Source: Streptomyces sp. I6 (GTDB lineage: Bacteria; Actinomycetota; Actinomycetes; Streptomycetales; Streptomycetaceae). Taken from it: 64,000 bases of DNA. The DNA lies in NCBI GenBank assembly GCA_003725745.1, contig RHDP01000001.1, positions 3,487,001 to 3,551,000 of the forward strand, given 5' to 3'. A program made the position numbers and the translations under genes. Under the pieces are notes generated by a model. That model saw nothing but the letters and a program-made list of their open reading frames with translations. It had not been told where the DNA came from and ran no database searches. Shown piece after piece: positions 6,760 to 33,849 of the stretch (positions within the stretch are counted from its first letter, which is position 1; each line of letters begins with the position of its first letter).

Positions 6760-6977
6760 GCGTTGTTTTCGTGCTCCTTCCGAGTCGTTCACGGCGCCGC
6801 GCCGACGACGGGCGGCCCCGCGACGGGAATGCACGCGGGGAGCCGTCGACGGCCCACCGGGACCCGGCCGGGCGCGGGACGCGCCGCAGCGGCCGCCCGG
6901 ACCGCATGTGCCGTGTGGACCCGCCGGAACCGTCCGGCCGCCCGCACCGCACGAGGATCACGAGAGGACATCGCGGA

Positions 6978-29370: not shown

Positions 29371-29435
29371 GTTCTGTAGGAGCACGACGAGCACCACACG
29401 CACCGCAAGAACTCACTTCACAGGAGGAACACAGC

Positions 29436-29669
29436 ATGAGCACCGCAGCGGCTACGCCCTTACCGTTCGGGGTCCGGCACCTCGTCTCGCCGGCTCCGAC
29501 GAACAGTGAAGAACCGGTCATCACCTACAGCGAGGGACTTCAGCTCAACGTCTCCGCCGAGGGGAATCCGTGGCACGCGATCACGGCCGAGATGCCCGAG
29601 ACGCAGACCGAGACCAGCAACGGCGACGGCTCGGCCCCCGGCTCCGACTCCGGAACCGACCTGTACTGA
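29436..29669 (+). CDS. tgmA: Graspetide precursor peptide (ATP-grasp target RiPP)
   Basis: 77 aa, with AGGAGG 8 bases before the ATG. The leader carries LPFGVRHL (residues 9-16), the PFG-R recognition-type motif of this precursor family (TIGR04186-like). The C-terminal core from about residue 52 is EMPETQTETSNGDGSAPGSD and on to TDLY, rich in the hydroxyl side chains (T56, T58, T60, S61, S66) and carboxylates (E55, E59, D64, D71, D75) that ATP-grasp ligases join by omega-ester bonds. Codon 9 is TTA. One base separates it from tgmB. The exact ring pattern cannot be read from sequence. Confidence 0.88.
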   Translation: MSTAAATPLPFGVRHLVSPAPTNSEEPVITYSEGLQLNVSAEGNPWHAITAEMPETQTETSNGDGSAPGSDSGTDLY

Positions 29670-29670
29670 C

Positions 29671-30618
29671 ATGCAACCCATCCTCATCCTGACCGGCCGG
29701 AACGATCTCACGGCCGATGCAGTGGTTGAGGAGTTGGTGAACCGCGGTGAACAAGTCGTCAGGTTCGACACGGCCGACTTCCCGACCGCATCCCGTCTGG
29801 CCGTCTCCCTCACCGGGGACGGCTGGACGGGGCCTCTCACCAGCTCCCGCACGGTCCGCCTGGAATCCGTCAAGTCGGTGTGGTGGCGACGCCCCAACGA
29901 ATTCCGAACCCCTGACGACTGGCCCGGACACGCCCGCGCCCTCGCGGTCTCGGAAGCACGCTCCGGACTGCTCGGCGTGCTCGGCTCCCTGCCCGTGCGG
30001 TGGGTCAACCATCCGAGCAAGGATGCCGCCGCGAACTACAAGCCCGTTCAACTGGCGGTTGCCGCTCGCTGCGGGCTGGACGTTCCCCGTTCCGTGATCA
30101 CATCGGACCCCGAGCACGCCCGTGCGTTCATGGGGGACGACGCGGTTGTCTACAAGGGGCTCGGCGGTGGCGTGCTCGGCCCCGAAGGGAAGCGGCAGTT
30201 CCTCCCCGTGGCACTCGTGTCCGCGGACCAGGTGGACGACGGAGTGAGCGGCACCGCCCACCTGTTCCAAGAGCGCGTGGACAAGGCGTACGAAGTGCGC
30301 TTGACCGTGATCGGTGACCGTATGTTCCCCGTCGCCATCCACACCGACAGCGAAGCCGCGCAACTCGACTGGCGAACGGACTACCAGTCCCACCGATACG
30401 AAGTGGTGGACATGCCCCCGGAGGTAGAGAAGGGGGTCCGCCAACTCATGGACGAACTTGGCTTGTTCTTCGGCGCGCTGGACTTTGCCGTCACACCGGA
30501 CGGACGTTGGGTGTTCTTCGAGGTGAACCCCAACGGTCAATGGCACTGGCTCGCTGTCAGAGCTGGTGTCCCGCTCGTTGAAGCCATGGCCGACGCTCTG
30601 CAAGGAGAGACCGCATGA
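29671..30618 (+). CDS. tgmB: ATP-grasp graspetide ligase
   Basis: 315 aa, starting one base after tgmA ends. It is an ATP-grasp ligase of the SAV_5884 type (TIGR04187-like) that activates Asp/Glu side chains as acyl phosphates and closes ester rings with Thr/Ser in the precursor core. Seen: SVWWRRPNEFR in the N-terminal domain, AVVYKGLGGG as the ATP loop, LFQERVDKAYEVRLTVIGDR, and FFEVNPNGQWHWL with the Glu and Asn that bind Mg-ATP. A longer upstream start would overlap tgmA and is rejected. tgmC overlaps its stop by 4 bases. Confidence 0.93.
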   Translation: MQPILILTGRNDLTADAVVEELVNRGEQVVRFDTADFPTASRLAVSLTGDGWTGPLTSSRTVRLESVKSVWWRRPNEFRTPDDWPGHARALAVSEARSGLLGVLGSLPVRWVNHPSKDAAANYKPVQLAVAARCGLDVPRSVITSDPEHARAFMGDDAVVYKGLGGGVLGPEGKRQFLPVALVSADQVDDGVSGTAHLFQERVDKAYEVRLTVIGDRMFPVAIHTDSEAAQLDWRTDYQSHRYEVVDMPPEVEKGVRQLMDELGLFFGALDFAVTPDGRWVFFEVNPNGQWHWLAVRAGVPLVEAMADALQGETA

Positions 30619-31772
30619 CCGAAGCGCCCCCATGGACCGGAGCCGCCAAAGCGCTTGCCGACAAAGTGACCGCCGACGCTCCCGCATGGCATGACGCCGT
30701 AAGCAACACCCCTCGTCACCGGCTCGTCCCCCGCTGGTGGCAGCGCATCCCGGACAGCCCGACGCAGGAATGGGCGTTGGTGGACCTCCCCGAGGACTCC
30801 GCCGAGCGGCTGCACGCCGCGTACACGGACGAGACGCTAGTTACCCGCGTCGGCCCTACGCACGCCGACCACGCCACCCCCGGTGAACACGGGAAGGGCG
30901 ACCCCACGTCGTCCAGCACCCTGCCGGGGCTCATCGTGTCCATGGCTCACCGACTCGACGTGAAGCCCGGCCACAAGGTGTTGGACGTGGGTACGGGCTC
31001 CGGGTACTCCGCCGCTCTGTTCGCCCGCCGCTTCGGGGACGAGAACGTGACGAGCGTGGACGTGGACCCGTACTTAGTCGAGGCAGCCCGGACCCGTCTC
31101 GCCGAGTTCGGACGCGCACCGCGCGTGGAAGCTATCGACGCCACCGGGGAACTTCCCGATGCGGAGTACGACCGCATCATGGCGACCGTCTCCGTACGGC
31201 CCGTCCCTCCGTCGTGGCTGCGCGCGCTCCGTCCCGGCGGACGGCTGGTCACGACGATTGCCCACACCGCCCTACTGATCACGGCGGACATGGGAACGGA
31301 CGGCATCGCACGCGGCACCGTCCAGCCCGATCCGGCAACGTTCATGGAGACCCGGCAGGAAGCGGACTACCCGGCCAAGCTGAACAGCGTGTTCGTGTCT
31401 GCCCGTGTGCGGGAGGGCGAGGACGTGCGGCCCCCGGACGGTCCGGTTCCCGACCTGTGGCAGGAATGGCCGCTCCGGTGGCTGTACGAGCTGGACACGC
31501 CCGGAGTCGAGACCCGCGCGGCTACGTACCCGGACGACGGGCGGCGGGTGGTGTGGTTGCTCACTGCGGACGGGTCATGGGCGCGTGCAGAGGACGGGGC
31601 AACGCCACTGATCCACCAGGGCGGACCCCGCCGGCTCTGGGATGACCTGGAACGTGTCCGCCGCAAGTGGGAAGAGAACAACCGGTTCTCTCTCCACACG
31701 ATGCGCGCGGAACTCTCGCCCGAGGGCAGTCTCCTGCTGTCCCCAGACGACACATGGCGATTCCCGATCTGA
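30615..31772 (+). CDS. tgmC: PIMT-like methyltransferase of graspetide system
   Basis: 385 aa. The central domain is a class I SAM methyltransferase like protein-L-isoaspartate O-methyltransferase: VLDVGTGSGYSAALFARRFG (motif I), SVDVDPYLVEAA (motif II), and LRALRPGGRLVTT. The flanking N- and C-terminal domains are those of the family that accompanies SAV_5884-type ligases (TIGR04188-like). Characterised relatives methylate an Asp of the cyclised precursor, which then collapses to an aspartimide. Codon 154 is TTA (31074-31076). ATGA coupling to tgmB. It probably acts after ring closure. Confidence 0.92.
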   Translation: MTEAPPWTGAAKALADKVTADAPAWHDAVSNTPRHRLVPRWWQRIPDSPTQEWALVDLPEDSAERLHAAYTDETLVTRVGPTHADHATPGEHGKGDPTSSSTLPGLIVSMAHRLDVKPGHKVLDVGTGSGYSAALFARRFGDENVTSVDVDPYLVEAARTRLAEFGRAPRVEAIDATGELPDAEYDRIMATVSVRPVPPSWLRALRPGGRLVTTIAHTALLITADMGTDGIARGTVQPDPATFMETRQEADYPAKLNSVFVSARVREGEDVRPPDGPVPDLWQEWPLRWLYELDTPGVETRAATYPDDGRRVVWLLTADGSWARAEDGATPLIHQGGPRRLWDDLERVRRKWEENNRFSLHTMRAELSPEGSLLLSPDDTWRFPI

Positions 31773-32772: not shown

Positions 32773-33849
32773 ATGGCGCTGCTGACCATAGGGGCGTTCG
32801 CGCGTGCCGCGCGACTCTCGGCCAAGACGCTGCGACGATACGACGAGCAGGGCCTGCTGTGCCCGGTCCAGGTCGATCCGTTCACCGGCTACCGCTACTA
32901 CGACCCCCGGCAGCTGGAGCACGCCCGGCTGGTGGCCTGGCTGCGCCGCATCGGTATGCCGCTCGCCCGTATCCGTTCCGTCTGCGCGCTCTTCGTGACG
33001 GACCCGGACGCGGCGGCCCGGGACGTCCGTGCCTTCTGGGCGCAGGTGGAGGCCGAGACGGCTGCGCGGCGCGACCTCGCGGACTTCCTCGTCGACCGGC
33101 TGTCCGACCAGGCAGCGGGAAGGGACCGTCCGATGCAACGACTCGGCGCACCTCTGGGACTGCGTTACGCCGCCCTTTCGGATCGCGGCCTCGTCCGCGA
33201 CACCCACCAGGACTCCGTGTACGCGGGTCCGCGACTGCTCGCCGTCGCCGACGGTTACGGCGAGGGAGGGGAGCGGGCGGGCGGAGCCGCGATCGACGCG
33301 CTCCGTCCGCTGGAAAGCGTGACCGCTGAACCCGGTGAACTCCTCAACCTGCTGGCCGACGCTGTGCGACTCGCCCACCGTGCGGTCCGCGACCTCCCGG
33401 AATCCGGCACCACCCTCACGGCACTGCTGTGGACCGGCTCCCGGCTCGGTCTGGTCCACATCGGCGACACCCGTGCCTATCTGCTGCGCGGTGGCAGGAT
33501 CTTCCGCATCACCCATGACCACACGGTCGTCCAGGCGATGATCGACGACGGCGGACTCACCGAGGACGAGGCCCGCTCCCACCCTCAGCGGGCGATGCTG
33601 CTCAAGGCCCTCGATGGCGCGGCCTCACCCGCGGAACCCGATCTGTGCCTCCATGACGCCGAGGCCGGTGACCGCTATCTGCTCTGCTCCGACGGGCTGT
33701 TCACCGTGGTTCCGGAGGCCGAACTGCGGCGGGTGGTGGCCACCGTCGCCGATCCGGAGGACGCCGCTCGGGACCTGGTCGCCCTCGCCCATGACGCGGG
33801 TGGACCGGACAACGTGGCCTGCGTGGTAGCCGACGTGGTGGAGCTGTGA
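32773..33849 (+). CDS. MerR-type regulator fused to PP2C protein phosphatase
   Basis: 358 aa in one intact frame. Residues 1-75 are a MerR winged helix (LLTIGAFARAARLSAKTLRR, GYRYYDPRQLEHARLV), followed by a short dimerisation helix (to about 110). Residues 125-358 form a PPM/PP2C Ser/Thr phosphatase: HQDSVYAG, VADGYGEGGERAGG, GTTLTALLW, VHIGDTRAYLLRGG, DHTVVQAMI, LLCSDGLF and GGPDNVACVVADV, retaining the Asp residues that bind Mn/Mg. It may be a DNA-binding protein whose activity or partners depend on dephosphorylation. The palindrome upstream suggests autoregulation. A strong hairpin follows. Confidence 0.88.
   Translation: MALLTIGAFARAARLSAKTLRRYDEQGLLCPVQVDPFTGYRYYDPRQLEHARLVAWLRRIGMPLARIRSVCALFVTDPDAAARDVRAFWAQVEAETAARRDLADFLVDRLSDQAAGRDRPMQRLGAPLGLRYAALSDRGLVRDTHQDSVYAGPRLLAVADGYGEGGERAGGAAIDALRPLESVTAEPGELLNLLADAVRLAHRAVRDLPESGTTLTALLWTGSRLGLVHIGDTRAYLLRGGRIFRITHDHTVVQAMIDDGGLTEDEARSHPQRAMLLKALDGAASPAEPDLCLHDAEAGDRYLLCSDGLFTVVPEAELRRVVATVADPEDAARDLVALAHDAGGPDNVACVVADVVEL

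Follow-up and report, generated by a model that had tools for sequence, protein, structure and literature searches.

We report a three-gene cassette, tgmA-tgmB-tgmC, in a 64,000-nucleotide stretch of the Streptomyces sp. I6 genome (GCA_003725745.1, contig RHDP01000001.1, positions 3,487,001 to 3,551,000; here called the window, in whose numbering the cassette positions are given) that very probably makes a graspetide of the fuscimiditide type (graspimiditide, group 13). Its genes encode a precursor peptide, an ATP-grasp ligase and a PIMT-type methyltransferase, and a product with ester rings and an aspartimide is predicted from the match in core spacing to fuscimiditide. The gene families and the expected chemistry are already known; TgmC is a divergent tailoring enzyme, and two features read from the sequences distinguish the group: W-x5-F-[PS]-L-[HD] replaces WxxxGxP, and compared with fuscimiditide the candidate modifiable Asp is displaced by one residue away from the inner Thr.

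Open reading frames (ORFs) were found exactly where a sequence-only reading, made without database searches, had placed a contiguous precursor, ligase and methyltransferase, all on the plus strand, and the motifs that it quoted are all present (AVVYKGLGGG, 30142-30171; FFEVNPNGQW, 30514-30543; VLDVGTGSGYS, 30978-31010). The tgmA gene runs from an ATG at 29436 to a stop at 29667-29669 behind a good ribosome-binding site (RBS), with GGAGG just 5' of the start in 9/9 aligned Streptomyces upstream regions; tgmB starts (ATG, 29671) a single base past that stop, with no clear RBS in the 30 bases 5' of its ATG; and the tgmC ATG (30615) shares 4 nucleotides (ATGA) with the tgmB stop. From this arrangement, translational coupling of the three genes is a fair reading. 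Scanning GTDB genomes with the proteins as guides, we obtained 27 loci, of which 23 were close (ligase identity, 66-97%; Streptomyces, Streptacidiphilus, Streptantibioticus and Kribbella) and 4 distant (24-43%; tgmC matched only in L030). One named carrier is Streptomyces pacificus. The three genes were matched in the same order in 23/23 close loci, with varying flanks; since tgmA and tgmB also score above the cut-offs of curated models, the cassette is not a chance arrangement. Nonsynonymous-to-synonymous rate ratios (dN/dS; I6 sequence against Streptomyces relatives) were well below 1, at 0.06-0.28 for tgmA and 0.09-0.17 for tgmB (9 comparisons each) and 0.10-0.19 for tgmC (7 comparisons), and all three genes are under purifying selection. 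The three reading frames are open throughout in Streptomyces sp. I6.

TgmA scored 25.4 bits against NCBIfam TIGR04186, barely above the cut-off of 25. In a 22-row precursor alignment (A1), the invariant positions include P10 F11 G12, L35 Q36, G43 N44 P45 and H47 A48 and, in the core, P54 E55 T56, T58 E59 T60, D64 G65, P68 G69 S70 D71 and T74 D75; the spacing T-x3-T-x10-D-x3-D was present in 22/22 precursors and arose in 266 of 200,000 shuffles of the final 24 residues of TgmA. Fuscimiditide (AGTMRVTYPDGQKPGQSDVEKD, from PDB 7LI2/7LIF) has an inner ester Thr7-Asp18, an outer ester Thr3-Asp22 and a 10-residue loop between them (PMC12291112; this and the other papers cited by accession are drawn on in their available parts). 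Among 7 distant rows the spacing occurred only in L094, which is fuscimiditide itself (taken as its locus by identity over 22 residues and matching precursor length only). Asp64 is the sole loop Asp in TgmA, and Thr60-Asp64 is constant and ungapped in A1, which puts the Asp at loop position 4; a nearest-Thr rule gave position 4 in 19/22 subfamily rows and position 2 in 3 Kribbella rows with an extra loop Thr. In the 22 rows the residue before the leader triplet PFG is V, I, P, L or T and never R, whereas RPFG is the key recognition sequence of ThfA, the fuscimiditide precursor (PMC13003496). TgmA has no Lys or Arg past Arg14. Queried with the TgmA core, the solved structures yielded nothing useful.

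Table 1. Features of the tgm cassette in window numbering.
Feature	Position	Strand	Basis
RBS of tgmA, AGGAGG	29422-29427	+	read from sequence
tgmA, precursor peptide, 77 aa	29436-29669	+	TIGR04186; 22-row alignment; dN/dS
Leader, about residues 1-53, and core, about 54-77, of TgmA			predicted border
Pro10-Phe11-Gly12, probable ligase recognition motif in leader	29463-29471	+	invariant, 22/22
Core PETQTETSNGDGSAPGSDSGTDLY	29595-29666	+	near-invariant, 22 rows
Thr56, predicted outer ester donor (to Asp75)	29601-29603	+	invariant; matches fuscimiditide Thr3-Asp22
Thr60, predicted inner ester donor (to Asp71)	29613-29615	+	invariant; matches fuscimiditide Thr7-Asp18
Asp64-Gly65, predicted aspartimide/isoaspartate site in 10-residue loop	29625-29630	+	invariant DG, 22/22; predicted from fuscimiditide
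Asp71, predicted inner ester acceptor	29646-29648	+	invariant
Asp75, predicted outer ester acceptor	29658-29660	+	invariant
tgmB, ATP-grasp graspetide synthetase, 315 aa	29671-30618	+	TIGR04187; PF21068; structure alignments
tgmC, PIMT-type (PAMT) methyltransferase with C-terminal domain, 385 aa	30615-31772	+	
PTSSST of TgmC (P97-T102)	30903-30920	+	invariant, 20/20 rows of alignment A2
VLDVGTGSGYS, S-adenosylmethionine (SAM)-binding motif	30978-31010	+	glycines invariant, 20/20 rows
WEENNRFSLH	31668-31697	+	in place of WxxxGxP in C-terminal domain of other enzymes

The core DNA (29595-29666) has zero synonymous changes against L006 and L009, where whole-gene dS is about 0.3, and does differ in L007, L008, L011 and L012; for the unchanged stretches recombination is as likely as constraint. 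A decayed-looking tgmA relative (L111, G783:C76:22055-22165) has both predicted acceptor Asp residues substituted.

TgmB scored 394.1 bits against NCBIfam TIGR04187 (cut-off, 350), matched Pfam PF21068 (MvdD pre-ATP-grasp domain) and aligned nearly end to end with the solved graspetide-type ligases 9bou, 5ig9 and 5ig8. By eye in these alignments it keeps the Arg of EVRLTVIG and the Asp, Glu and Asn of ALDFA and FFEVN(P)NG, which we take to be catalytic residues. In a ligase tree of 55 rows (omitting L053, L061 and L071, with no ligase found, and L062, L063 and L097, which are short), a 100/100 branch splits 30 rows from 25, with the TgmB subfamily on the fuscimiditide-ligase side and 24 Streptomyces rows plus Frankia L030 on the other.

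TgmC matched Pfam PCMT at 69 bits, and its PTSSST is presumably the substrate-pocket motif of PIMT-type enzymes. Its structure model has a two-domain fold like that of the Thermotoga maritima PIMT, with the extra C-terminal domain present (1DL5 aligned range, 10-379 of 385 aa), an architecture reported for PIMTs associated with ribosomally synthesized and post-translationally modified peptides (RiPPs) (PMC10787088). In the C-terminal domain, where graspimiditide PIMTs carry WxxxGxP (PMC13001092), W-x5-F-[PS]-L-[HD] was found in 22/22 TgmC-subfamily rows and 0/36 comparison rows. The three roles given to these genes by the sequence-only reading were thus borne out by the family models, the ligase alignment to solved relatives and the methyltransferase fold.

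We infer the following chemical steps, with their connectivity, their order and the leader cut. TgmB would bind the TgmA leader via PFG and use ATP to activate Asp71 and Asp75 at their side-chain carboxylates, linking Asp71 to Thr60 and Asp75 to Thr56; the two esters (-36 Da) would build a two-rung stem around the 10-residue loop. TgmC, by analogy acting only on the cyclised core, would methylate the loop Asp64 with SAM, and the methyl ester would collapse onto the Gly65 amide to give an aspartimide (-54 Da in total), which may persist or open to isoaspartate (isoAsp). The scheme for both enzymes is modelled on the four characterised graspimiditides. The leader would be removed by a protease encoded elsewhere.

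Several observations weigh against assigning the cassette to the fuscimiditide type. TgmC reached 299.5 bits against NCBIfam TIGR04188, below the curated cut-off of 380, so that an earlier TIGR04186/4187/4188-like label holds for the first two families, both above cut-off, and only loosely for the third. By pattern count WxxxGxP is present in 0/22 TgmC-subfamily rows and in 30/36 outside it, with L062 in another register; the count leaves out L014, L015 and L070 (C-terminus absent from the best piece), and since 29 of the 36 comparison enzymes were picked from the top TIGR04188 scores in the genus, the comparison set is biased towards the usual type. The fuscimiditide ligase is long-branched and pairs with L069 rather than with the TgmB subfamily, and a methyltransferase tree of 57 rows (L006, L014, L015 and L099 omitted for length) leaves TgmC unjoined to the fuscimiditide enzyme, which groups with L069 and L071 (97/94); the deep forks of that tree are weak (49/47), and the stem branch of the TgmC subfamily is long (1.55 changes per column). 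In 3/23 close loci tgmC is broken or short beside a full-length ligase: its reading frame is split in two in L006 and L014, and in L015 it ends early, near residue 262. L014 and L015, whose ligases are identical, lie on a chromosome and on an 86-kb contig of a single Streptacidiphilus. In the three loci tgmC may be dispensable, or the assemblies may be wrong. Three Kribbella rows (L019, L025 and L026) have a second loop Asp. Among 19 other Streptomyces precursors, 7, which are Thr/Asp-rich, also hold T-x3-T-x10-D-x3-D, so that this spacing marks a wider group and not fuscimiditide alone, and its use as proof of fuscimiditide kinship is weakened (the 19 come from 30 loci, 3 being without a ligase found, 7 without a recognised precursor and L055 dropped by hand because its candidate was seemingly out of frame). 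Finally, the distance from the inner Thr to Asp64 exceeds that in fuscimiditide by one residue, and in amycolimiditide relocating the modified site was generally not tolerated (PMC13001092).

Given that intolerance, the altered TgmC tail may be matched to the shifted Asp site. Against such a match, other precursors with Asp at positions 4-6 pair with WxxxGxP enzymes (L058, L052, L065 and L030), and we do not firmly claim that motif loss is tightly coupled to the site shift. Scored by script, 20/26 comparison precursors have the Asp 3 residues past the nearest Thr; reading by eye gives 21, L057 having been misread by the rule.

One competing account concerns the end state: TgmC could act like SsfM, which turns Asp81 into an isoAsp/Asp mixture without net mass change (PMC10787088), with the imide hydrolysing to isoAsp and a net TgmC mass change of zero. 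Gly follows Asp64 as it does the target Asp in the SsfM substrate, yet purification yielded the aspartimide for 3/4 characterised graspimiditides (PMC13001092). The TgmA sequence decides neither way, and we regard an isoAsp end product as rather unlikely; it overlaps the fuscimiditide-type assignment, in which the end state is left open. We consider a third ring improbable. Thr58, Glu55 and Glu59, invariant in 22/22 rows, allow another ring or pairing and to that extent count against the two-ester connectivity; Thr58 would be esterified by another carboxylate (Glu or the C-terminus), for three esters in all, and in SsfA the C-terminal carboxylate is suggested to take part in a fifth ester (PMC10787088). 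The C-terminal strand, however, has only two acidic residues in all rows but L019 (three), and fuscimiditide, with equal spacing, has two esters. That TgmC lies outside the RiPP pathway, either having diverged to act on another protein or decaying, beside a graspetide without imide, would suit its long stem branch, missing WxxxGxP, score under the TIGR04188 cut-off and damaged copies but is very improbable in view of its dN/dS (0.10-0.19), its invariant PTSSST and SAM-motif glycines, its place next to tgmB in all 23 close loci and the invariant candidate Asp-Gly.

The full precursor (E <1e-39) is rare, being found in 6/392 sampled genomes of the genus and 2/394 of the class, I6 included in both; at E 0.001 the counts are 22/392, with most of the other 16 stopping near profile position 60-64, and 7/394. 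In L014 and L015 the precursor was matched only from about residue 25-29 onward. Among the 80 genomes of the family to which G168 belongs, a composite query matched G168 only. Within the available flanks of the 23 close loci (less than 1 kb upstream in L013) no conserved dedicated regulator or exporter was found: an XRE regulator occurs in 2/23 (L010, 65%; L027, 29%), GntR-type matches in 5/23, downstream, an ABC permease in 0/23, DUF7848 in 4/23 and a 161-aa ORF, with no Pfam match, in 6/23. Nine aligned upstream regions have little in common beyond the RBS outside the nearest relatives. An earlier suggestion that the regulatory surroundings may be new to the literature thus finds little support. 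DUF397/DUF5753 pairs, reported close to group 13 clusters (PMC13097080), were absent from the Pfam matches of the scanned tgm neighbours.

GC content is 66-69% across 25.5-33 kb of the window and 69-78% in its remaining blocks, and no mobile element was identified. The lower GC, the changing flanks and the upstream DNA common to the nearest relatives only suit a cassette that moves between genomes. All 81 plasmid records that match the ligase do so at <60% identity and are thus not records of the TgmB subfamily.

At 32773-33849 (+), the window encodes a MerR-type DNA-binding domain fused to a PP2C-type phosphatase domain. Elsewhere, Streptomyces sp. I6 has a second TIGR04186 precursor (49.8 bits; 6241104-6242221; L040 and L100) beside a TIGR04187 ligase split over two frames, with no adjacent TIGR04188 match, and a further ATP-grasp match at 6768898. 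The listed completeness of the assembly is 87%, one ligase and two methyltransferase-type genes are frame-split, and indel errors may be present. In Streptomyces sp. JHD 1 (L007), a second, different PIMT-type methyltransferase lies a few hundred bases 3' of tgmC (frame from base 6922), with motifs that by eye resemble those of the L099 enzyme.

According to PMC13001092, clusters of this kind numbered 962, 1326 and 1432 in earlier surveys, and published surveys distinguish eight core clusters and five leader subgroups. The available parts of PMC10787088, PMC13001092, PMC12291112, PMC13003496 and PMC13097080 hold no account of the TgmA core or of graspetide PIMTs without WxxxGxP, a large graspimiditide survey lying outside this scope, and in the few searches made no paper was found that joins graspetide with Kribbella or ATP-grasp with SAV_5884. 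RiPP-associated PIMTs must spare the proteome from methylation, and their C-terminal domain, mostly with WxxxGxP, is the proposed specificity element (PMC13001092). A natural clade without WxxxGxP, with the Asp shifted by one and the stem spacing kept, would serve as a ready test of this proposal. Only tentatively, and with the odds against it, do we propose that TgmC typifies a lineage of RiPP-modifying PIMTs in which the cyclised substrate is recognised via W-x5-F-[PS]-L-[HD], in place of WxxxGxP, and the aspartimide is set one residue deeper in the loop than in fuscimiditide. If this is true, a near-frozen core across Streptomycetaceae and Kribbellaceae amid changing neighbourhoods would suggest a single conserved target or signal and not an antibiotic under diversifying selection. 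The compact 24-residue core with its two-rung stem could also yield a second ligase/methyltransferase pair beside ThfB/ThfM.

Among known systems, the T. maritima PIMT (1DL5) shares the two-domain fold of TgmC at 17-21% identity; its Z score ties with those of one-domain PIMTs, which cover the N-terminal part of TgmC only, and no peptide cassette is known to include it. Other Streptomyces group 13 graspetides draw on the same three families (TIGR04186/04187/04188), with the ligase directly 5' of the methyltransferase in 14/28 loci (by pattern). They differ from tgm in mostly longer, Thr/Asp-rich cores that make more rungs possible, in another leader end, in methyltransferases whose rows above the TIGR04188 cut-off score 396-507 bits among the matches listed, and in WxxxGxP (24/29 comparison rows). 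The sister precursors L096/L112 and L095/L097/L098 share with TgmA the leader stretch YS.ELQ..V..DGNPW, a D-x3-D end and, in L096 and L112, a final GTDLW. Read in the same way, these have shorter loops (6 and 9 residues) with the Asp at loop position 3; Ser is among the predicted donors in L095, L097 and L098, and the methyltransferases of L095-L098, unlike TgmC, have WxxxGxP. The arrangement T-x3-T-x6-D-x3-D of L096 and L112 (the latter by eye) would give a 6-residue loop, smaller than the 10-12 residues of graspimiditide loops (PMC12291112).

The fuscimiditide system of Thermobifida fusca (ThfA/ThfB/ThfM) shares with tgm the leader PFG, the two-rung T-x3-T...D-x3-D stem and a 10-residue loop whose one Asp precedes a Gly, and its ligase lies on the TgmB side of the deepest ligase-tree branch, yet the two are not sisters. 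It differs in gene order (ligase-precursor-methyltransferase in L094, precursor-ligase-methyltransferase in I6), in precursor length (89 aa in L094, 77 aa in TgmA), in the loop Asp (position 3, against 4 in TgmA) and in the WEQLGQP of its methyltransferase, where TgmC has no WxxxGxP. The Kribbella loops read PIPDGQRPGS in five rows and DTGDGQRPGS in three, and that of fuscimiditide reads YPDGQKPGQS; PDGQ[KR]PG is common to fuscimiditide and the first five, and DGQ[KR]PG extends to the three others.

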